Below are positions 3,262 through 17,025 of a DNA stretch of 17,677 nt, one piece after another. The notes below the pieces were generated by a model, which saw only the letters and a list, made by a program, of their open reading frames with translations, had not been told where the DNA came from and made no database searches. This DNA is from Microcoleaceae cyanobacterium UBA11344 (lineage in GTDB: Bacteria; Cyanobacteriota; Cyanobacteriia; Cyanobacteriales; Microcoleaceae), in assembly GCA_003483675.1 (NCBI GenBank), contig DMYK01000140.1, positions 2,434 through 20,110 on the forward strand, written 5' to 3'. The translations under genes were made by a program, and so were the position numbers. Each line of letters begins with the position of its first letter. Position 1 is the stretch's first letter.

Positions 3262-4874
3262 ATGTCGAAGTCGCATACTGTCAAACTCACAATCACTAAT
3301 AATACCAATCAGGAAATGAATTACCAGAGTGATTCCTTCGACTCTGGAAGATTAGCAGATGGGGGGTCTTGGCCAGCCACCATTGCCTCTGGTAAAAGTG
3401 AAATTATCGAATGTTGTGAAAAAGATTGGTCTGCTGTAGGATGTTCTGGCTATGTTAACTATAGTCTAGGGGACGGAATAGTTACCCTTGCATTTTCAAA
3501 CCCTACTATTGGTGAAAATAAACTTGGTGTTGGGGTTGGGAATAAACAGGTATGGGACTGTATTGAAGGTCACAAATATGAACCGTTTATAGAAGAATTT
3601 GAAATAGGCTCGCAGAGATATTTTGCCGCCTGTCAATGTACAGGTGGTAAAATTAACAATGCGAGCATAGCTCTTTCTGTACTAGCCATATTGCCATATA
3701 ATCCAAACGCAACTATGGAATTTAATGTTATCCAATATAATGTTTTTGCACGACCAGACAAGCCTAAATTACTAGGTTATGAAGGCAAGGAAGAACACCA
3801 AAAATTCCTGAAGCGCTTGCACAACTCAACGATGGTAAGGTAGATATTATTACTTTAAACGAAGTTTTTTCCCAGGTTGGGACACCGTTATGTGACCAGA
3901 TGTTGAATGAGTTTAAGAAGTACGGGTTTCCCTACCACACACGGGTATTAGATGGTGGAATGCTTGAAAAAGTCGGTGGAGTTATGATTGTGTCCAAATA
4001 GCCACTTCATGCCGATACATACGTCTATAGCGATATGCCCACCATAGACAACGAAGATATCTCAGTTGGACTCGGAGAGAAAATAGTAGCTAAAGGAGTT
4101 GTTTACGCAGCCGTCAAAAAAACGGAGAAGGGATTTACCAAGACTTTTCATATTTTTGCCACTCATATGCGTGCCTGGAACAGTCAAACCGCACGTGAAA
4201 CTCGTCAAAAGCAAGCCAAACAAATGAAGGAATTTGTTGAAGCCAAAAATCTTCCCAATAATGAACCTACTCTCTCTGCTGGCGATTTTAATGTCGATTT
4301 TGTAAGGTGCGCTTCTGAATTGTCAGATTTGGCTCAAATTTTAGATGCGAAGCTACCGGAATTAAAAGGGGAACAAAAGTATACTAGCGACCCCAGCTCA
4401 AACATACTTGTAGGTAAAGATAGTGCCGCGAAGGCTTGTCTAGAAGCTGATAAATCAAGCTGGGGAGAGAAAAAGGAAAATGTATATCATCCCATCCCTC
4501 AAGTAAAAAATCCTACTCCGCCAAACCCACCTATTTCAAAACTTGATTCCTTCTTTGCCGATCCCACAAAAGATAAAGAAACCCTCTATATAGAGGAAGG
4601 TGGATGTTATGCACCATGCTGTCTTCACGAATGGCTAGATTATATTCTGATCTCAAACAGACATCAGCAACCGCTTAACACTCCTACTTTGGAGTCTATC
4701 CGTCTCAAAGCCGCGTCCCCTTTTGCAGCAAGCTGGTTATGGATAGATCCTCCATCAATGATAGAAGTGGTAGGGAAAGAATTCTCTCCATCCACACCAA
4801 AACCCGATCAAATTATAACTTCCGATCTTTCAGATCACTACCCTGTATTCAGTCGCTTTGTATTTTCTACTTGA
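3262..4874 (+). pseudogene. Neutral sphingomyelinase-like phosphodiesterase with an N-terminal beta-sandwich domain, inactivated
   Basis: Three open pieces form one gene: 3262 to about 3800, then to 3998, then 4002-4874. The enzyme part resembles bacterial sphingomyelinase C of the endonuclease/exonuclease/phosphatase fold, which splits sphingomyelin to ceramide and phosphocholine. Its motifs are ITLNEVF (metal Glu, 3861), GGVMIVSK-x-P, IFATHM (4157-4174), KNLPNNE, AGDFNVD (about 4278), EWLDYILIS and SDHYPVF (about 4830). Two lesions break it. One A is missing from the A5 run at 3800-3804; six A would read Q-K-I-P-E-A-L-A-Q-L into the enzyme frame. A TAG at 3999-4001 replaces the conserved Trp of VSKWP. 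Restored length is about 537 aa. Residues 1 to about 135 form a beta-rich domain (LTITNNTNQEMNY, SGYVNYSLGDG, VTLAFSNPTIG) reminiscent of aegerolysins; this link is weak. No signal peptide is visible. Catalytic motifs are all retained, so decay looks recent. Confidence 0.8.
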
Positions 4875-5013: not shown

Positions 5014-5108
5014 CACCGTACCGGAGAAATCGGACTAGCTATCCCGCTTTTTAATCGACTGCATAATTCACAAATTGCCTGACACAACCGTCTAACTAAT
5101 AGCAGGGT

Positions 5109-5299
5109 ACAGCACCGACTATAGCTCCGGCTGTAGCAGGGGCGATCGTTTTGCGATTGTCAAAGCTATTCAGGGGCGCAATGACTTACCGAAAATCACT
5201 ACGGGACACGCTACTACCTGCTCTAGTGTTGTCCTGACGATTAAGAAAATTTTACAGGTTAGCAACCGATCTCTGGAGCGAAAGAAAGTCGCTTTCATC
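5109..5299 (+). pseudogene. Relic of a second NRPS-terminal AAR-like reductase domain
   Basis: Bases 5154-5299 match 14878-15021 in the NRPS at roughly 85% by eye, encoding GRNDLPKITTGHATTCS and the following VVLTIKKILQVS with few changes. The match continues upstream in degraded form to about 5109 with an insertion. It stops abruptly at K-V-A-F-I, just before the Rossmann glycine motif, where it runs into a sigma-factor relic. There is no start and no full domain, so this is a remnant of a duplicated locus, not a gene. Confidence 0.7.
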
Positions 5300-5315
5300 A
5301 CAAAAGGGACTTCAA

Positions 5316-5438
5316 TCTCATCAAGAGATAGGCGAACGGCAAGAGATTTGCTCCCAGAGTGTCTGCAAGCGCATCTCCCAAGCGCGGGAAATTCTGCGAG
5401 AGGAAACGCAGCTAGTTTTCCTCCATTGGCGACTTTGA
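5316..5438 (+). pseudogene. Relic of a sigma-70 region 4 (HTH)
   Basis: The frame reads SHQEIGERQEICSQSVCKRI, then SQAREILREE, and ends at TGA 5436-5438. It parallels SHQEISEKQNISYQNVCKRI of the sigma-like protein at the start of the window, including the near-identical DNA TGTCTGCAAGCGCATCTCCC. Everything upstream of the HTH is gone and is replaced by the reductase relic. A second copy of the sigma-like gene was therefore truncated here. Confidence 0.65.
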
Positions 5439-5527
5439 CCTCAAATATTTAGTCGGAGCTTTGTTTCAAATCTTGGACAATAAATGCGCTAGTCCAAAGT
5501 GAAAACACCCAAACAACCTAAAGTGTT

Positions 5528-6393
5528 ATGACTTTATCTACAAACCCAGAAATATCTTCGGAACAAAATATGCCTATTTTGAATGATAACATCACTCCCA
5601 TGACGCCAGAGACACCGGCATCTTTTCATCCTCTCTCGCTGGGCCAGCAAGCTTTATGGTTTCTCTACCAGATGGCTCCCGAAAGCGTGGCATATAATGC
5701 TTTTAATACAGCGCTAATATACTCAAAAATAGACATTAAATCTTGGCATCTGGCGTGGGAAAATATTGTGAATCGCCACCCGATTCTCCGAACCACTTAT
5801 ACCGCCATCAAAGGAAAAATATTTCAAGTTATTCATCAACAGCTCAAACTTCCTCTACAGGAAATAGATGCTTCTCATTGGACTGAAAATGAATTAAAAG
5901 AGAAAATTTTCTTAGAAGCAGAGCGTCTATTCAATTTAGAAAAAGAGCCAGCATGGCGAGTTACTTTATTTACTCGTTCAGAACGAGAACATATTTTCTT
6001 GCTGACAATGCACCAGATTGCCAGCGACTTATGGTCTAGCGATCAGATCTTTAATGAATTGCGACTTTGGTATGCTGCCGAAACGGAACAAGTTAGCCTT
6101 GAACAGATAGAAGATTCTCTTCCTAAAAATACGCCCTATACCCAGTTTGTACATTGGCAGTCCGAAATGCTATCGAGTCCAAAGGGAGAAAAACTTTGGA
6201 AATACTGGCAAAAACAATTATCGGGTGAGTTGCCAATCGTAAACTTGCCGACAGACAGACCCCGACCACCAGTGCAAAGCTATCGGGGAGAAACGCATAT
6301 TTTTCGGCTAAATGAAGAATTAATTCGGGGACTGGGAGAGGTAGCTAGAGCTACAGATACAACTCTTTATAAGCTGATGCTGACGGCTTTTTT
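5528..6393 (+). pseudogene. NRPS condensation domain, N-terminal half (exon upstream of intron insertion)
   Basis: This encodes the first half of a condensation domain. The C1 motif is LSLGQQALWFLYQMAP, then NRHPILRTTY, then the active-site region LTMHQIASDLWS (about residues 160-171), and LPTDRPRPPVQSYRGE. The fragment ends within LMLTAFF at the intron boundary; beyond 6393 the frame runs into intron DNA and stops at 6448. Joining base 6393 directly to 8821 restores L-T-A-F-F-V-L-L-Y-R-Y-T-N in frame, the normal sequence of this domain. The active-site HHxxxDG is changed to HQIASDL, replacing the second (catalytic) His by Gln. This first C domain may therefore have been non-catalytic even before the insertion. 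ATG 5528 has only a weak upstream purine patch; ATG 5570 is an alternative start. Confidence 0.85.
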
Positions 6394-6430
6394 GTTAGAG
6401 TCGATAGGAGCGTTGCCACTCTTATCTCTC
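6394..6430 (-). ncRNA. Group II intron domain VI with bulged branch-point A
   Basis: The minus-strand hairpin GATAAGAGTGGCAACGCTCC closes with TATC and continues with an AGAG/CTCT pairing. The 3' side carries a GA bulge whose A (opposite base 6401) lies 8 nt from the intron end, as expected for the lariat branch point. Confidence 0.75.
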
Positions 6431-6435
6431 TTTCA

Positions 6436-6469
6436 GAACGGAACGTGAAACTTTCGCTTCATTCCGCTC
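6436..6469 (-). ncRNA. Group II intron domain V
   Basis: This is a 34-nt minus-strand hairpin. GAGCGGAA pairs with TTCCGTTC over 8 bp, with an inner stem closing on a GCGAAAGT tip. It carries the AGC catalytic triad (complement of 6466-6468). It sits between the RT stop codon and domain VI, the canonical position, and looks intact. Confidence 0.85.
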
Positions 6470-6502
6470 CTCGATATCTTCATCCTTTGTTAAGGATACA
6501 AT

Positions 6503-8263
6503 TCAAAACGGGTTATCATCATAGTTCTTTTCTAAGGAGCCATCATTTTCCGTTTTTATGTCGTGACAATGTTTATGCAGAAGTTGTAGGTTTTTATATT
6601 CATCCAACCCACCTAGTGAGGTTGGTTGGATATGGTCAACTTCTACGGTGTCTGTAGGTGTAAAGTACAAACCACAGTGGGTACATTTACCTTTTTGTGT
6701 CTTAAGAATTGTTGCCATTCTTGTTGGTGTTTCCGGGTATTCTCCGCGTCTAGAACTCCAATAAATCCAGTCACCGTTGTAGGGTGTTGAATTGCCTTTA
6801 ACTTTGACGTGCCTTTTGATAGGCGTTTCTTTGTGTTGGGCTAACTCTAAACCTTCTTCTGTGCTGAAGCACCAATTTCTATCGCCTACTGTTCGCCAGT
6901 ATTTGTCTTTGTTGATGCTACCTTTTCCCCGTCTTCTAGCCCATGCTCTTAGCTTGTCATAAATAAGATTATCGACCCGGTTAAAGGTTTCCTTACTTAC
7001 AACTGTTGAGTAATAGTTTGACCATCCCCTAATGATTTGATTTAGCCTAGTAATTAAGGCAATTTGTGGGGCGTTGCTGTGGGTATCTATTACTTCTTCA
7101 ATTTTTGCAAGATGAGCTTTGATTTTGGGTTTGGACGGGGTGATTAATGTTTTGAAACCTAGTGGTATTCCCTGTGTATTTTTGGCACTTCGATAGTTGC
7201 CTACCTTGTGTTGTTGTACATGAAATCCCAAAAACTCAAACCCAACATTTCCTTCGTATTCATTGAGGGTGTGGGTGAGTTTCGTTTTGCTTGGTTTCAA
7301 TTCTAAGCCAAGGTCCTTTAACCATTCTGCAATTATCTTCTGACAGGCTATTACTACTTCAATGTCTTTGTGTATGATCACAAAATCATCGGCGTATCGG
7401 ATTAAACTGATTTCTTTTCGTTGGTTAATGGTATTACCTACGACTTGTTTAACCCGATTTTCCATTCCGTGTAAGGCTATATTTGCCAAAAGTGGGGAAA
7501 TGACCCCTCCTTGTGGAGTACCTTCTTTGGTCGGGAAGATTTCACCTTGGTCTAATACCCCGCTTTTAAGCCACGACTTAATTTGTTTTCGTAGTCCTGG
7601 ATAGGTATTGATTTTGTCAAGTAATGCTTTATGATTTATGCGGTCAAAGCATTTGGTAATATCAGCGTCTAGCACATATTTGGCTTTGTATCTGATACTG
7701 TTAAAGATAGCTTCAATCGCATCGTGACACGACCTACCGGGTCTAAAACCATATGAGTTTGGCTCGAATTTGGCTTCCCATTCTGGTTCAATAGCTGATT
7801 TTACAACTGCTTGTAAGGCGCGGTCATACATTGTGGGTATGCCTAATGGTCTTGACTCATTGGTTCCTGGTTTTGATATCATTACCCGACGTGTCGGTTG
7901 GGATTTACCAGTTACTTTGAGTTGACTTCCTAGCTTTAATCGTTGCTTCGGGGTTAGTAATTTAATACCATCCACACCTGCTGTACGTTTGCCAGTATTG
8001 TCTTGCGTGACCCGTCGTACCGCTAACACCTTATTAGACCATGAATTAATCAAGGTCTTTTGAAGCTTCCGAACTGCTTTAACATCGTCACGTTCACTTG
8101 CTCGATAGATACGTTTTTGCAACTTGAACGTCAATCTTTCGGCTCTTTGCCAATTGATTTGATTCCATTCCACCGTCGAGTTGTCCCGCGTTTTAGACTT
8201 ATTCATTGCTACTAAGTTTTTATCCTTGAAGTTACCGTGTATCTGTCTGCATATCTCTGTCAT
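6503..8263 (-). CDS. ltrA: Group II intron reverse transcriptase/maturase with HNH endonuclease
   Basis: This 586-aa multifunctional protein helps the intron RNA fold and splice and drives retrohoming by target-primed reverse transcription. RT blocks are visible: RRVMISKPG with RPLGIPTMYDRALQ (about 125-150), SYGFRPGRSCHDAI (169-183), LDADITKCFDRINH (198-211), GTPQGGVISPLLANIAL (248-264) and the active site YADD (290-293). FLGFHV and the maturase (X) region follow (RLNQIIRGWSNYYS). An HNH domain comes last: C527xxC530, VDHIQP (542-547), and HKHCHD near 563-568. Length and domain order are those of full cyanobacterial intron proteins, with no stop or frameshift, so it is probably functional. 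Start ATG at 8263; ATG at about 8209 is an alternative. Confidence 0.95.
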   Translation of the reverse strand: MTEICRQIHGNFKDKNLVAMNKSKTRDNSTVEWNQINWQRAERLTFKLQKRIYRASERDDVKAVRKLQKTLINSWSNKVLAVRRVTQDNTGKRTAGVDGIKLLTPKQRLKLGSQLKVTGKSQPTRRVMISKPGTNESRPLGIPTMYDRALQAVVKSAIEPEWEAKFEPNSYGFRPGRSCHDAIEAIFNSIRYKAKYVLDADITKCFDRINHKALLDKINTYPGLRKQIKSWLKSGVLDQGEIFPTKEGTPQGGVISPLLANIALHGMENRVKQVVGNTINQRKEISLIRYADDFVIIHKDIEVVIACQKIIAEWLKDLGLELKPSKTKLTHTLNEYEGNVGFEFLGFHVQQHKVGNYRSAKNTQGIPLGFKTLITPSKPKIKAHLAKIEEVIDTHSNAPQIALITRLNQIIRGWSNYYSTVVSKETFNRVDNLIYDKLRAWARRRGKGSINKDKYWRTVGDRNWCFSTEEGLELAQHKETPIKRHVKVKGNSTPYNGDWIYWSSRRGEYPETPTRMATILKTQKGKCTHCGLYFTPTDTVEVDHIQPTSLGGLDEYKNLQLLHKHCHDIKTENDGSLEKNYDDNPF

Positions 8264-8820: not shown

Positions 8821-11800
8821 TGTGTTGCTTTATCGCTACACAAATCAAGAAGACATCCTTGTGGGAAGTCCGATGCTGGGGAGGCCAGGGCGAGAGTTTA
8901 AAGGAGTTGTCGGTTACTTCGTAAACCCGGTTGTTTTGCGGGCTTCTATTTCGGAAAACCTGACATTCCAAGATTTGTTATCTCAGGTAAGCACTCAAGT
9001 CAAAGAAGCCCAAAATCACCAGGATTATCCTTTTCCACTGTTAGTTGAGAAACTACAGCCTCAAGGAGAACCCAGTCTCTCTCCACTGTTTCAAGTCAGC
9101 TTCACTTGGCAAAAGCAACGTTGGTGTGAGTCTCTTAAAAAGTCATCGCGCTTCCAGGAGCCTGGACTTGAGATGGAGCCTTACCCACTCGGCCATCAAC
9201 GGGGGGCAAGCGTTGATCTGGATGTGATGGTGATGGAAATGGGAGATGTTATCCAGGCTGGCTGGCAATATAATACTGATTTGTTTGATGAGGCCACGAT
9301 CGCTCGGATGGCGGGACATTTCCAGACTTTACTGTCAGGAATCGTCGCCAATCCAGAGCAGCCGATTTCAGAATTGCCCCTGTTGACAGAAACAGAACGA
9401 CACCAGCTATTAGTCGAGTGGAATAATACTTCGGCTGAATATCCCGAGGATAAGTGCATCCACCAGCTATTTGAGGAGCAAGTGGAGCGATCGCCCTCTT
9501 CTGTGGCAGTGGTGTTTGAAGGGGAACAACTGACATACCTAGAATTGAATGCAAGAGCCAATCAGTTAGCACACTACCTGCGTGAGCTGGGAGTGGGGCC
9601 AGAAGTGTTGGTCGGTCTATGTGTAGAACGATCGTTTGAGATGATAGTGGGACTGTTGGGTGTCCTCAAAGCTGGTGGTGCTTATGTTCCGCTCGACCCA
9701 GCTTATCCCTTTGAACGGCTGAGTTTCATGCTGGAAGATTCTTCTGTACCAGTATTGCTCACTCAGTCAAAGCTAGTCGAGAAGCTTCCCCCACACTCAG
9801 CGCGTGTTGTCTACTTGGACTCTGACTGGGAAACAATTGCTTTCCACAGCAAGGATAATCCTTCAAGCCCAGTAAAGCCAGAAAACCTGGCTTATGTTAT
9901 CTACACATCAGGGTCTACAGGGAAACCCAAAGGCGTTTTAATCCAACACGGGTCGCTAGTCAATTACATGACGGCTGCGAGTGCTGAATATGAGATAGAC
10001 CAGTGCGATCGCATTTTACAATTCTCCTCTATTAGTTTTGATGTCAGTGCCGAAGAAATCTATACCAGCCTAACTTCTGGTGCGACGCTTGTCTTGCGTA
10101 CTGATTCCATGCTGGACTCCCTTGAGGGATTTTTGCAAAAGTGCAAGAATTGGGAAATAACTGTAATGGCTTTGCCAACAGCCTACTGGCACGAACTGAC
10201 CGCTTTCTTGAGTCAAAAAACGGTGGTGTTACCCCCATCCTTGCGCTTAATAATCATTGGCGGAGAAAAAGCACTGCCCGAACGACTGAAAACTTGGCTT
10301 GAGTGTGTGGAACAGCGAGTTCGTCTGGTGAATAATTACGGCCCGACAGAAACCACTGTGGGAGCAACGATATATGATTTATCGGTAGCGGACACGACAT
10401 TGAAGGAGTTGCCGATCGGTCGTCCCCTTGGTAATGTCCAGACCTACATCTTAGATGGGAACAGACAGCCTGTACCCATTGGTATTCCTGGTGAGTTGCA
10501 CATCGGTGGCGCTGGTTTAGCACGGGGATACCTGAACCGTCCTGAGTTGACCGATGAGCGGTTCATTCGCAATCCCTTTAGCAATGAACCGGGTGAACGT
10601 CTCTACAAAACTGGCGATTGGGCCCGCTATCTGAGCGACGGCAATATCGAATACCTGGGTCGTATTGACAATCAGGTGAAGATTCGTGGCTTCCGCATTG
10701 AATTAGGTGAAATCGAAACCGCTATTTCTCAGCATCCATCAGTCCAACAAACAGTAGTCATTGCCACCGAAAACAAAGCTGGCAACAAACAATTAGTAGC
10801 TTATATTGCCCTCCCAACAGAAGTAACGCCCAACATTAGTGACCTGCGTCATTTCCTCAAACAGAAACTTCCAGACTACGTGATACCAGCAGCATTCGTC
10901 ATTCTGGATAACCTACCCCTAACCCCAACTGGTAAAGTAGACCGTCGCGCCCTACCCTCACCCGAATTACGACCTGAATTGGAACTCACTTTTGTCCCCC
11001 CTCGCACTCCTATCGAGCAGATACTAGCTAGTATCTGGGCTTGTGTCCTGGGTATTGAGCAAGTGGGCGTTCACGATAATTTCTTTGAACTCGGTGGACA
11101 TTCCTTACTAGCGACTCAAGTTATATCGAGGGTGCGCGATACGATGTCCGTCGAATTACCATTACGCAGTTTATTTGAAGCACCCACGATTGCCGAATTC
11201 GCTTTGCGGGTTGAGATAGCGCTCAAAAACGGACAATCTGTAGAAACTTTACCTCTATTACCGATTCCCAAGTCAGAGTCCATCCCATGTTCCTTCGCTC
11301 AAGCGAGGTTGTGGTTCCTCGACCAATTACAGCCAAATAGTTCATTTTACAACATCCCGGTAGCGTTGCGTCTTTTCGGTCAGCTCAATATAGCAGCTTT
11401 AGAGAACAGCATCAACGAAATTATCCAGCGTCACGAAGCCTTACGCACCAACTTCGCGACAGTAGAGGGAGAACCCATTCAGGTTATAGCCTCAACTCAC
11501 AGTTGGGAACTACAAGTAGTCAGCTTGTTGCACCTAGGAGAAAGCGAGCGAGAAATTGAAGCGCAACGATTGGCAAATGAAGAAGCGAATCGACCTTTTC
11601 ACCTAGAGCAAGAGCCTTTATTCCGAGTTACATTGCTACAGCTAGGTGAAACAGAATACGTCTTACTGCTCACCATGCACCACATTATTTCTGATGGGTG
11701 GTCTCTGGGCGTATTCGTGAGGGAACTAACAGAACTTTACCAAGGCTTTTGCACTGGAAAACCTCCAGTTTTGCCCTCGTTGCCAATACAATATGCCGAC

Positions 11801-14800
11801 TTTGCGGTTTGGCAGCGGCAGTGGTTGTCTGGAGAAATACTGGTTCCCCAGCTTGACTACTGGAAGCAACAACTATTAGACGCTCCGGGTTTATTAGAAT
11901 TGCCAACAGACCGACCACGACCGGCTGTTCAAACCTTCCGGGGAGGATATTACTGTGCAGCCCTTTCCCAAGAATTGAGCGCGGAACTGACTACTCTCAG
12001 TAAGCAAGCGGGAGTCACTCTGTTTATGTCCCTTTTGGCGGCGTTTCAGACATTCCTCTACCGCTTTTCAGGGCAAGATGACATCGTAGTGGGTACGCCT
12101 GTAGCTGGTCGCAACCGACGAGAAATTGAAGGGTTAATTGGCTTTTTTGTTAATACTTTAGTGCTGCGAACTAACCTCGGCGGCAACCCCACTTTTGAGG
12201 AGTTACTTAATCGAGTCCGGGAAGTGGCGCTGCAAGCTTACACGCATCAAGACCTGCCTTTCGAGCAGTTGGTAGAGGCATTGCAACCAATCCGAGACTT
12301 AAGCTACACGCCCCTGTTCCAGGTGATGTTTGCCCTTGACGACGATTTGGTTCCTGCTGTGGAACTGCTTGATTTAGCGGTAAGTTCTTATTCCGTGGAA
12401 ATCGGCACAGCCAAATTTGATTTGACCCTATCAACGGAGAATACGGCTGATGGATTGGTAGCAGAATGGGAATACAATGCTGATTTGTTTGATGAGTCTA
12501 CCATCGTTCGGATAGCCAGGAATTTCCAGACCTTGCTCGAAGGTATTGTCGTCAATTCCAAACAAGAGATTTCTGAATTGCCCCTGTTGACAGAAACAGA
12601 ACGACACCAGCTATTAGTCGAGTGGAATAATACTTCGGCTGAATATCCCGAGGATAAGTGCATCCACCAGCTATTTGAGGAACAGGTACAACGGACACCT
12701 GATGCCATAGCGGTCGTTTTTGAAGGTGAGCAACTCACATACCTAGAATTGAATGAAAGAGCAAACCAACTGGCACATTACCTGCGATCGCTGGGTGTAG
12801 GGCCAGAAGTTTTGGTGGGGATTTGTGTAGAGCGCTCAAGAGAAATGATAATCGGTTTGTTGGGAATCCTCAAAGCTGGCGGTGCTTACGTTCCGCTAGA
12901 CCCGAACTATCCGTCTGAGCGCTTAGCTTTCATGCTAGAAGATTCGTCAGTTCCAGTGCTGCTCACTCAAGAGAGGCTAGTCGAGAAACTTCCCCAACAC
13001 TCTGCGTGTGTTGTCTGCTTAGACTCAAACTGGGAAGAAATTGCTGTCCACAGCAAGAATAATCCTTCAAGCCCAGTAAAGCCAAAAAACTTGGCTTATG
13101 TTATCTACACATCAGGGTCTACAGGAAAACCCAAAGGCGTTTTAATTCAACATGAATCGCTAGTCAATTACACAACGGTTGCGAGTGCTGAATATGAAAT
13201 AGATCACTGCGATCGCATTTTACAATTCTCCTCAATTAGTTTTGATGTTAGTGCCGAAGAAATCTATACCAGTTTGACATCGGGTGCGACGCTTGTCTTG
13301 CGTACTGATTCCATGCTGGACTCCATTGAGGGATTTTTGCAAAAGTGCAAGAATTGGGAAATCACTGTAATGGCTTTGCCGACAGCCTACTGGCACGAAC
13401 TGACTACCTTGTTGAGTCAAAAAACTCTTGCAATACCCCCATCATTACGCTTGGTAATCATTGGCGGAGAAAAAGCACTGCCCGAACGACTGAAAACTTG
13501 GCTATTGTGTGTGGGACAGCGAGTTCGTCTGGTGAATAATTACGGCCCGACAGAAGCTACTGTGGGGGCAACGATATATGATTTATCGGTAGCGGACACG
13601 ACATTGAAGGAGTTGCCGATCGGTCGTCCGATCGCCAACACCCAAATCTATATTCTCGATCGCCATCTCCAACCCGTTCCCATCGGTGTTCCCGGAGAAC
13701 TCCACATCGCTGGTGTGGGACTAGCAAAAGGTTATCTTAACCGTCCCGACTTGACTGAAGAGAAATTTATTCCCAATCCTTTCAGCAATGAACCGGGTTC
13801 GCGCCTGTACAAAACTGGAGATTTAGTTCGTTACCTGAGCGACGGTAATATCGAATACCTCGGTCGCATCGACAACCAAGTAAAAATACGCGGCTTCCGT
13901 ATCGAACTAGGCGAAATTGAGGCGGTACTGAGCCAGCATCCTGGTGTAAAAGAGACTGCGGTTATTGCCAGAAAGAACGTTACAGGCGACAAGCAATTAG
14001 TGGCTTACGTTGTCTGCCATCAGCAACCCTCACCCGCAATCAGTGACTTGCGCCGCCTCCTGAAAGAAAAACTGCCCGAATACATGATACCCAGTGCTTT
14101 TGTCGTGCTGGAGGCACTACCACTAACACCCAACGGTAAAGTAGACCGCCGCGCCCTACCCGCCCCCGAAAAGCGTTCCGAACTGGAAGAATCTTTTGTC
14201 GCCCCACGCACTCCCATTGAGGAAATGCTGGCAGAAATCTGGGCAGAAGTGCTGGGATTAAAAAAAGTGGGCATCAATGATAACTTCTTTGAATTAGGTG
14301 GACATTCCCTGAAAGCTGCGTTTCTGGTATCCAAGCTTTCAGTAGAGATGAACCTGAAAATTTCACTCAAGCTTCTGTTTCAGCATCCCACTATAGCTGA
14401 ATTAGCCGAAGCGCTCAATCATTTGCCCGCTCCAGATCCCTCTTTTAATCGAGAAAAACTCCAAGCAAAAGGTGAACAAACTATGACCGCCTCTTTAACT
14501 AAAACCACAGACCTATCTCCATTTTTCAAACTAGAACAGCGCTCCTTGCTATCCTTGTTAGCTGTAGGCAAAATAGCACCAGTTGACTCAGCAGCTCTGG
14601 GTTATATTCCCCTCTCTCTACTAAAAGAAACCAGCTTAACTCGCGATGAAATCCTTCAAGATTTGTTTGACAACCTGCCCATGTGGGATGGTGTTATGGA
14701 GACTGAATGGGGTCGAATAGCGGTCTTAATTCTCCCTATATTCGAGGATGAACTATACAGCGACCCGCAGAAACTCGTGCAAATGGTTGTTGAAGCTTTG

Positions 14801-15232
14801 GAAATGACCCGACGACTAGGTGCTAAAACTGTTTCCTTAACGGGTTTGATTCCCTCAGCAACGGATTACGGTTGTGCCATTGTTAAAGCTGTTGAGGGGC
14901 GCAACGACTTACCGAAAATCACTACAGGCCACGCTACTACCTGCTCTACTGTTGTCCTGACCATTAAGAAAATTTTACAGGTCAGCCAGCGTTCTCTAGA
15001 GAATGAGAAAGTAGCTTTTATTGGTTTGGGTTCGATTGGGATTAGTACCCTTCGTCTGATGTTAAAATGCTTGCCCCATCCTACAGAAATTACACTTTGC
15101 GATGTCTATAGTAAGCTGGAATTTATCGAAAAAATTCAACAAGAATTAATTGATGTTCATGGTTTTAAAGGTCAAATTCAGATTGCCATGTCTGCCTCTG
15201 ATCTCCCACCAGAAATCTACAACGCTACCTGA
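8821..15232 (+). CDS. Non-ribosomal peptide synthetase, two modules, truncated at both ends (intron and in-frame TGA)
   Basis: The frame opens at GTG 8822 directly after the intron and is the 3' part of the gene begun at 5528; it has no start of its own. Domain order (residues from 8822): rest of C1 (1-180), A1 (205-690; YTSGSTGKPKG at 360, NNYGPTE at 503), PCP1 (GGHS, Ser761), C2 (HHIISDGWS at 953, intact), A2 (YTSGSTGKPKG at 1427), PCP2 (Ser1829), and a reductase-like domain from about 1890. By GrsA alignment, both A domains give the same pocket code, D-V-E-A-I-G-N-V-G-K. I do not know its substrate; it shares six positions with a Lys code I recall (DAESIGSVAK), so a basic residue is only a guess. 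There is no epimerase, methyltransferase or thioesterase domain. TGA 15230-15232 ends the frame inside the reductase, and the same frame continues to 15700. Confidence 0.9.
9371..10425 (+). repeat. Intragenic duplication, copy 1 (A-domain core)
   Basis: Aligns without any indel to 12575-13629 at a constant offset of 3204 nt. The first 107 nt (9371-9477) are identical in both copies, as are most of 9890-10425. Similarity drops sharply right after CGGTCGTCC (10417-10425). The middle part (9478-9880) is more diverged. This mosaic indicates gene conversion or recombination between the two modules. Confidence 0.8.
12575..13629 (+). repeat. Intragenic duplication, copy 2 (A-domain core)
   Basis: Partner of 9371-10425. 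It spans the C-A linker (CCCCTGTTGACAGAAACAGA) through the A-domain substrate-binding subdomain, which explains why both modules carry the same specificity residues. Confidence 0.8.
14472..15232 (+). other. NRPS C-terminal AAR-like reductase domain, N-terminal and Rossmann parts
   Basis: After PCP2 and a short linker the protein changes family. It has ALEMTRRLGAKTVSLTGLIP, KITTGHATTCSTVV and the nucleotide-binding motif VAFIGLGSIGISTLRLML (from 15011). These align by eye with cyanobacterial long-chain acyl-ACP reductase (G-GFTS, RFTTGNTHTAY, VAVVGATGDIGSAVCRWL). AAR reduces an acyl thioester on ACP to an aldehyde with NADPH. Fused behind a PCP, the obvious inferred role is reductive release of the peptide. 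AAAGGTGA lies 7 nt before an in-frame ATG at 14483, so in an ancestor this may have been a separate downstream gene, or it may still be translated separately. Confidence 0.65.
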
Positions 15233-15700
15233 ATAATTGGGGCTACCAACGTCCCAGATCTTCTCGACATCAATCGGCTGAAACCCGGTACTTTAATTGT
15301 CGATGATTCTGGCCCACACTGTTTTTCCCCAGAACAGGCGATTAAGCGCTTTGAGAAACACAAAGATATTCTGTTTACCGAAGGTGGAGCGCTTCACGCA
15401 CCTCACCCGATAAAAACGGTCATCTACCTACCACAATCAATGAAGAAAAACATGGATGAAGATTCATGGTCAGACGAGTTTAAGCCTACCAATCCCCACA
15501 ACATAATGGGGTGCGTTTTGTCCAGTCTTCTTTCTTCTCGTTTTGACTATATGGCCCCCACTGTAGGATTAGTTAATGTGGAAACTTGCGTGCAGCATTA
15601 TCAAGGTTTAGAACGGTTGGGCTTTCAAGCAGCCGACTTGCATTGTGAAGGCTATGTGTTGCAAGTCGAGCCGAACCAACCACCAAATAGTAGAAATTAG
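15233..15700 (+). pseudogene. NRPS C-terminal AAR-like domain, catalytic-Cys part, cut off by in-frame TGA
   Basis: Same frame as the NRPS, immediately after the TGA. IIGATNVPDLLDINRLKPGT parallels the AAR segment VWVASMPQ...LKQP, and VDDSGP parallels IDGGYP. NIMGCVLSSLLSSRFDY aligns with the AAR segment MFACFAEAMLLEFEGW, whose Cys is the acyl-accepting nucleophile; here it is TGC at 15512-15514. The end (ERLGFQA) matches AAR RHGFQPL. The first in-frame ATG is at 15440, without an RBS, so the fragment is unlikely to be made alone. TTA to TGA is the simplest origin of the stop. It ends 5 nt before the transporter gene. Confidence 0.75.
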
Positions 15701-15705
15701 CCATT

Positions 15706-17025
15706 ATGCGTAGTCTTAAGAATCTTCGAGCCTTTACAGGTGGAATGGGTGTTTTTTTTCTCGTCTGGTTTGGACAACTGGTATCCCTGATTGGGTCGGG
15801 TTTGACTAACTTTGCATTGGGAGTGTGGGTGTACCAGCGCACGGGTTCAGTCACTCAATTCTCGCTGATTTTGCTATTTGCTCTGCTGCCCAGTATCTTA
15901 ATTTCTCCGGTAGCTGGCGCCTTAGTTGACCGATGGAACCGGCGATGGTGCATGATTCTGTCTGACTCCGGTGCTGGTATAATGACGGTGGCGATCGCCC
16001 TATTACTCGCCACCGGCAACCTTGAAATCTGGCACATTTACGTCGCCGTTGGCTTCAGTTCCGTCTGTAAAGCCTTTCAGTTACCCGCCTACACTGCTTC
16101 GACTTCTTTGCTTGTGCCAAAAGAACACCTACCTCGCGCCAGCGGCATGGTTCAGTCAGGAGAAGCTTGCGCCCAACTAATCTCGCCACTGCTGGCAGGA
16201 GTCTTGCTAGGAATCGTCCAACTTGAAGGTGTCATTTTAATTGACTTTGCCACCTTCCTGTTTGCCCTCATCACCCTATTGCTCGTTCGCTTTCCTGACG
16301 CTAAGACTGCTGCGGTTCCAGTTGCCGGAAAAGCATCTCTTTGGCGCGAGGCGATGGAAGGCTCGACTTATATTTTTGTTCGCCCCGGACTTTTAGCGCT
16401 GCTAATTGTATTCGCCATCAATAATTTTGTTCTGGGAATGATTGAGGTTTTATTCACGCCACTGGTACTTTCCTTCACTTCTATCACCGTTCTCGGAACT
16501 ATTCAGTCCATCGGCGGTGCAGGGATGCTACTGGGTAGCGTATTGATGAGCGTTTGGGGAGGCCCCAGGACTTTAATTCGTGGCGTATTTGGTTTTGTCT
16601 TTCTCAGTCAACTGTGCATTTTTGCATTGGGATTACGCACTTCCGCTACACTTTTTGCTCTAGCTTTCTTCTTGTTTTTCTTCAGTTTGCCGTTCATCAA
16701 TGGATATAGCGATGCCATCTTGCTCCGAAAAGTGGCTCCCGATATTCAAGGCCGGGTTTTTGCCACAATCAACATGATTTGTTGGTCGTGTATTCCCGCC
16801 GCCTATGTTGTTGCTGGCCCTCTAGCCGAACGAATTTTTGAACCTCTAATGGTCGCTGATGGTTTATTGGCAGGAAGCATCGGACAAATCATTGGCGTGG
16901 GGCCTGGTCGCGGCATTGGACTGCTATTTATTACTATGGAAGTGCTGGTTATGCTAATAACTGTTGCCGCTTACCAGTATCCTCGCTTGCGGCTACTAGA
17001 AGATGAGTTGCCGGATGCAACATAG
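15706..17025 (+). CDS. MFS transporter, probable exporter of the NRPS product
   Basis: A 439-aa integral membrane protein of the major facilitator superfamily, of the type grouped with enterobactin/drug exporters (MFS_3-like). Hydrophobic segments are spread along the whole length, consistent with about 12 helices: FFLVWFGQLVSLIGSGLTNF, then FALGVWVY, LILLFALLPSILISPVAGAL, and so on. The loop after TM2, ALVDRWNRRW, is the MFS signature A region (GxLaDRxGRR). There is no stop, frameshift or truncation. ATG 15706 follows the NRPS stop by 5 nt without a clear RBS, suggesting translational coupling and one transcript with the NRPS. Export of the peptide is inferred from this arrangement. With the NRPS broken, continued expression is uncertain. 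Confidence 0.88.
   Translation: MRSLKNLRAFTGGMGVFFLVWFGQLVSLIGSGLTNFALGVWVYQRTGSVTQFSLILLFALLPSILISPVAGALVDRWNRRWCMILSDSGAGIMTVAIALLLATGNLEIWHIYVAVGFSSVCKAFQLPAYTASTSLLVPKEHLPRASGMVQSGEACAQLISPLLAGVLLGIVQLEGVILIDFATFLFALITLLLVRFPDAKTAAVPVAGKASLWREAMEGSTYIFVRPGLLALLIVFAINNFVLGMIEVLFTPLVLSFTSITVLGTIQSIGGAGMLLGSVLMSVWGGPRTLIRGVFGFVFLSQLCIFALGLRTSATLFALAFFLFFFSLPFINGYSDAILLRKVAPDIQGRVFATINMICWSCIPAAYVVAGPLAERIFEPLMVADGLLAGSIGQIIGVGPGRGIGLLFITMEVLVMLITVAAYQYPRLRLLEDELPDAT

Follow-up and report, generated by a model that had tools for sequence, protein, structure and literature searches.

A C-Terminal Release Domain Related to Carmabin TAD, with a Probable Role in Primary Amide Formation, in a Two-Module Nonribosomal Peptide Synthetase of a Microcoleaceae Cyanobacterium

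Introduction

How a peptide leaves its synthetase when the last carrier domain is followed by neither a thioesterase nor a thioester reductase of the usual type is the question raised by a nonribosomal peptide synthetase (NRPS) gene of Microcoleaceae cyanobacterium UBA11344. The gene lies in a 17,677-nucleotide stretch of contig DMYK01000140.1 (assembly GCA_003483675.1), which was analysed as a whole and is referred to here as the window. As predicted from its sequence, the enzyme is composed of two modules, (C-A-PCP)2, where C, A and PCP denote condensation, adenylation and peptidyl carrier protein domains, and of an additional C-terminal release domain. This domain (window 14471-15700, about 400 residues) follows the second PCP (PCP2) in frame and contains a single in-frame TGA. 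It is probably a Cys-dependent release domain of the carmabin TAD family, with the fold of the cyanobacterial long-chain acyl-(acyl carrier protein) reductase (AAR), and its most likely function is the release of a primary amide.

Similarity of the Terminal Domain to Carmabin TAD

The Pfam scan gave no significant match after PCP2, neither to a thioesterase nor to NAD_binding_4 (PF07993), in agreement with the first-pass annotation of the locus, which had placed there an off-loading domain of neither kind. The NAD_binding_4 reductases occupy the same terminal position; they are of the short-chain-dehydrogenase type and follow an NAD(P)H logic without a covalent Cys intermediate. Comparison of pieces of the window with NCBIfam gave weak matches only, to PigE, SbnB and one other family; two pieces reached 24 and 14.9 bits with the full-length PigE model NF053554, below its cut-off of 850, and the AAR model TIGR04058 gave no match at E values up to 10. 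When 30 members of the family were scanned, TIGR04058 matched one of them (E 0.0033) and a weak PigE match was obtained for all 30 (E up to 0.01). In several sources the domain is annotated as "predicted amino acid dehydrogenase" or as hypothetical.

The pieces of the domain matched the TAD of the carmabin pathway (9e4s/9e4x) over the whole length, with E values of 9.6e-85 for the part ahead of the TGA and 4.8e-49 for the part behind it. No clearly different family came out as best hit, and the carmabin TAD is the closest relative of solved structure. Five PDB entries (9e4s, 9e4u, 9e4x, 9e50 and 9e56) are titled "TAD from Carmabin Biosynthetic Pathway", the titles including an NADH complex, an NAD complex and a Cys2238-dephospho-CoA disulfide; TAD presumably stands for terminal amidation domain, an abbreviation left unexplained in the titles. 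Besides the whole-length similarity, the two domains have in common the Cys and the motifs GLGS(I/V)G, TTGH and VDDS, and the window domain shows the arrangement typical of the carmabin TAD family, C-terminal and directly after a PCP, without a thioesterase. The Cys of NIMGC was aligned with the carmabin TAD and, as deduced from the sequence ranges, would correspond to Cys2238. In the tree, for which long branches and sequence composition were flagged, both domains fell into the same group of 24 rows but in different cyanobacterial clades, and the copy in the window differs in being broken by the TGA.

Judged by these alignments, the release domain is of a type already on record, that of the carmabin TAD. 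The first-pass annotation, which did not know it as a standard termination type, needs correction here, since besides the solved carmabin TAD the release domains of VatR and HcaD, believed to amidate, are in print (PMC10949194, available excerpt). According to that excerpt, the domain after the PCP of HcaD shares 83.5% identity with its VatR counterpart and is believed to off-load by terminal amidation, carmabin A is listed among the peptides with a terminal amide, and a connection is drawn to vatiamides E and F as well as to carmabin A; for domains at the equivalent place of the vatiamide and hectoramide synthetases, release of C-terminal primary amides has been proposed. The VatR and HcaD domains resemble the window domain in their place after a PCP and, from their description, probably belong to the same family, the carmabin chain being the sole sequence compared.

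Conserved Residues and the AAR Fold

The parallel with AAR drawn in the first-pass annotation was borne out for an intact homologue, which has the fold of AAR, and the family Cys falls in the same hhalign column as the AAR nucleophile (Cys294 position). The motifs KITTGHATTCS, GLGSIG, VDDSGP and NIMGC, read in the window at that time, are all in place (Table 1). Identity between the family of the window domain and AAR (TIGR04058; 6jzq, 6jzu, 6jzy, 6jzz) is 16-17%. AARs carry TTGN and DG where the window domain, which is fused to an NRPS, carries TTGH and DD; with TTGH and VDDS in the window, the AAR motifs TTGN and DGG are thus absent.

Conservation was scored in a residue table of 118 rows, composed of 76 loci, the window, 9e4s, the proteins P0003 and P0050, and 38 further proteins, namely those with at least 370 residues among 115 others; three loci with short frames (L014, L024 and L070) were excluded from this table and from the tree. 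The three glycines of GLGSIG were kept in every row. The Cys was present in 116 of 118 rows, the exceptions being P0013, which is truncated, and P0094, in which this region is out of frame by eye; the loss of the Cys in intact homologues, which would have spoken against the annotated nucleophile, was therefore not observed. The His of TTGH was likewise found in 116 rows (Asn in L068 and L076), as was the second Asp of VDDS (exceptions P0006 and P0013). The row of the window carries the family letters at the Cys, the His, the second Asp and the glycines. At the equivalent positions of AARs, Cys, Asn and Gly were each found in 120/120 sequences, these being the 120 closest, of 2645, to one Microcoleus-type AAR. 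The AAR cut-off was exceeded in 21 of 24 genomes, the host included in the count; the host assembly gave no AAR match, and since it is 74.7% complete this absence may be an assembly gap.

Proposed Release Chemistry and Alternatives

In the proposed reaction, the pantetheine arm of PCP2 would bring the peptidyl thioester into the domain, where the acyl group would be handed to the Cys of NIMGC. Ammonia would then convert the Cys-bound acyl group to an amide, which would depart and be exported by the adjoining major facilitator superfamily (MFS) protein. The route favoured for the amidation step is a catalytic NAD(H) cycle without net redox: hydride would reduce the Cys thioester to an aldehyde, ammonia would add to give a hemiaminal, and NAD+ would regain the hydride to leave the amide, with the family His and second Asp acting in the amide half. 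Such a cycle would make amide products compatible with a reductase of the AAR type. We offer as a tentative proposal, possible but short of an even chance, that the family as such makes primary amides by this hidden redox cycle with tightly held NAD(H), an AAR-type aldehyde enzyme having become a redox-neutral amide synthase by gaining His and Asp.

Relatives with AAR-like assignments have been described. In the available excerpts, the N-terminal domain of PigE is modelled by its authors as an AAR-like thioester reductase in which the conserved Cys is kept (PMC8341465), a domain of PtTamH is assigned to the AARs (PMC9594044), and KecF carries COG5322 (PMC6498172). The PigE type shares the proposed AAR-like, Cys-dependent thioester chemistry and a weak profile match with the window domain but is fused to aminotransferases rather than to a terminal PCP, and in the printed alignment PigE has Asn and Val at the positions of the family His and second Asp. 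Taken together with the carmabin TAD, these assignments indicate an AAR fold that forms aldehydes in some enzymes and is associated with the release of amides in the closest relative.

The end product expected in the first-pass annotation was an aldehyde, formed by one NAD(P)H reduction of the Cys-bound thioester and leaving as such, as in AAR and the N-terminal domain of PigE. The common fold with its aligned Cys, the PigE match that recurs, weakly but consistently, throughout the scanned members and the invariant Rossmann glycines are all consistent with this outcome. Luciferase-like monooxygenases can use aldehydes, and genes of this type adjoin standalone copies of the domain in two loci (L041 and L042). 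PigE itself is reported to reduce a thioester, with the aligned Cys kept (PMC8341465, available excerpt). However, the closest relative of solved structure belongs to carmabin biosynthesis, carmabin A being a peptide with a terminal amide (PMC10949194, same excerpt as above), His and Asp stand in place of the AAR Asn and Gly in 116/118 rows each, and no aminotransferase was found with Pfam among eight proteins of six loci, a small sample. Because of the match to the carmabin TAD and the amide release proposed for the vatiamide and hectoramide synthetases, the aldehyde is probably wrong as an end product, and we regard this reading as unlikely; an aldehyde may nevertheless arise on the way to the product, or be released itself in some clades. 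Direct ammonolysis, in which ammonia would attack the Cys thioester without redox and the NAD(H) site would have only a structural part or persist from an AAR ancestor, is the hypothesis in print (PMC10949194, same excerpt), and net amidation indeed requires no redox. The dinucleotide glycines are nevertheless invariant and, according to the PDB titles, crystals were obtained with NADH as well as with NAD, which suggests that the cofactor matters, and to this route we assign a similarly low probability.

Several points weigh against amide release by the domain of the window. The amide products and NAD(H) binding are taken from relatives, through literature and PDB titles, and would have to hold by analogy for the gene and clade of the window, while the aldehyde-forming relatives (AAR and, by its authors' model, PigE) appear to share both fold and Cys. 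The contrast in His and Asp has a narrow control, as all the AARs compared are the closest to a single one of Microcoleus type, its PigE side would depend on one printed alignment, and two loci of the family carry the AAR-like Asn. A gene of the asparagine synthase type that could supply ammonia was detected by motif scan in 1/79 loci (L047). According to the excerpt of PMC10949194, no study of the mechanism and enzymology of terminal amidation had been made at that time, and a literature search by PDB codes and by amidation and release topics evidently found no paper on the carmabin TAD structures. Should the family release amides, product prediction would change for many gene clusters, and the His and Asp provide two residues at which to ask how amides might come from a fold that forms aldehydes.

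State of the Gene

In this assembly the TGA precedes the codon of the predicted catalytic Cys, and a group II intron (window 6394-8263, minus strand) sits antisense within the first C domain (C1). An intron in antisense orientation could not splice out of the NRPS transcript. On account of both interruptions, the gene as read cannot yield the whole enzyme. The view that it is a non-functional relic, dead in this host with the terminal domain idle, is given somewhat better than even odds and is compatible with any chemistry of the family; a second, decayed copy of the domain, of which a fragment is left immediately 5' of the NRPS start (Table 1), points in the same direction. Against it, the ratio of nonsynonymous to synonymous substitution rates (dN/dS), calculated against five homologues, is 0.19-0.33 on both sides of the TGA, near the 0.18-0.28 found between intact homologues, so that any loss would be recent or in part an artefact of the assembly. 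The draft assembly comprises 643 contigs, and a base-call error is possible.

Distribution and Gene Context of the Family

A contig scan with alignment A1 gave 244 stretches and 215 relatives, the best 80 being kept as 79 distinct loci; the same scan with the single sequence P0003 found no relative. These best 79 loci span 16 phylum labels, some of them of metagenome bins that are possibly mislabelled, and fusions to a PCP were found under 12 of the 16, yet scans of 30 members with Pfam and NCBIfam found no model dedicated to the family. In 56/79 loci the domain is immediately preceded by an in-frame PCP, as detected with a profile built from 49 of those rows, and intact copies exist in related genomes, including L082, which is probably from the same genome as L004; L003 and L004 are intact homologues with a PCP ahead of the domain. 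The loci without a PCP match comprise eight with a short frame (in L024 the match contains a stop), two at contig ends and 13 with a long frame, four of which (L073 and L078-L080) show an acyl carrier protein-like DSLMAFE by eye. The frame ends 330-470 codons past the domain start in 75/79 loci, and the A-domain pocket letters, where readable, differ among relatives. The domain is present in 6 of 98 genomes searched (host included) and in 2/29 within the host genus, which is probably Microcoleus, judging from the names of the AARs.

Some loci show further features. In 7 of 9 loci scanned with Pfam (L003 from Oscillatoria PCC 10802, L004, L005, L006, L007, L013 and L025), a PilZ domain (PF07238, E 1.5e-7 to 5.6e-12) is inserted in the C-terminal subdomain of the terminal module's A domain, ahead of the PCP and release domain; L012, L017 and the window have no such insert. 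The DISxxG motif is kept in 7/7 inserts and RxxxR in 0/7, and the inserts suggest a putative c-di-GMP-like control of the NRPS. A literature search on PilZ within NRPSs gave nothing evidently on topic, as judged from titles and abstract starts. The last module of L012 (Okeania hirsuta) is apparently C-PCP-release domain, without an A domain between C and PCP. In Streptomyces antioxidans (L047:10270-12138), a gene for a glutamine-dependent asparagine synthase, a possible ammonia source, lies right 3' of the NRPS with the release domain. The standalone copies in L041 and L042, and perhaps L038, are located directly 3' of the luciferase-like monooxygenase gene, near large open reading frames (ORFs) of NRPS-like appearance.

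Organization of the Window

The features of the window are listed in Table 1.

Table 1. Features of the NRPS locus (window coordinates).
Feature	Position	Strand	Basis or remark
Open stretch with decayed fragment of a second terminal-domain copy, just upstream of NRPS start	5096..5452	+	Match 5150-5314, 80% identity over 55 residues
Beginning of NRPS with initial part of C1, split by group II intron	5528..6448	+	ORF list, Pfam
Catalytic RNA core (RF00029) of the group II intron, opposite in direction to NRPS	6394..6471	-	
Reverse transcriptase/maturase of the group II intron, with HNH; antisense to NRPS	6503..8263	-	Pfam
NRPS open frame: remaining C1, first A domain, PCP1, C2, A2, PCP2, 253 codons of terminal domain; stop is the TGA	8822..15232	+	
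PCP1 (PP-binding)	11021..11203	+	Pfam, residues 734-794
C2 (Condensation)	11276..12616	+	Pfam, residues 819-1265
A2 (AMP-binding); pocket DVEAIGNVGK, identical to first A domain	12674..13738	+	Pfam, residues 1285-1639
A2 C-terminal subdomain (AMP-binding_C), without PilZ insert	13913..14140	+	Pfam, residues 1698-1773
PCP2 phosphopantetheine Ser codon (LGGHSL)	14306..14308	+	
Terminal release domain of TAD family with AAR fold, portion ahead of TGA; in-frame ATG 14483	14471..15229	+	
His of TTGH	14930..14932	+	116/118 family rows; Asn in 120/120 listed AARs
GLGSIG dinucleotide-binding motif	15020..15040	+	Three Gly in 118/118 rows
In-frame TGA cutting terminal domain	15230..15232	+	
Terminal domain, part after TGA; open up to TAG 15698-15700	15233..15697	+	
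Asp-Asp of VDDSGP	15302..15307	+	Second Asp 116/118 rows; Gly in 120/120 listed AARs
Cys of NIMGC, predicted acyl-accepting nucleophile, 3' of TGA	15512..15514	+	
MFS transporter adjoining NRPS downstream; probable exporter	15706..17025	+	Pfam

ORFs with a start similar to that of the MFS gene were found 3' of the NRPS in L003-L007, with one ORF between in L006. The two A domains of the window have, besides the same pocket letters, near-identical stretches by eye, as if a module had been duplicated recently. The third pocket letter is Glu, which we take to be typical of pockets for Lys, Orn and Dab, and a basic residue is therefore a weak guess for the substrate. In the first C domain MHQIASDLWS stands at the core motif, which is usually HHxxxDG, with the second His changed to Gln by eye. 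Farther upstream, window 3262-4874 contains two ORFs, perhaps pieces of one gene, the second of which shows by eye a GDFN motif like that of the endonuclease/exonuclease/phosphatase family.
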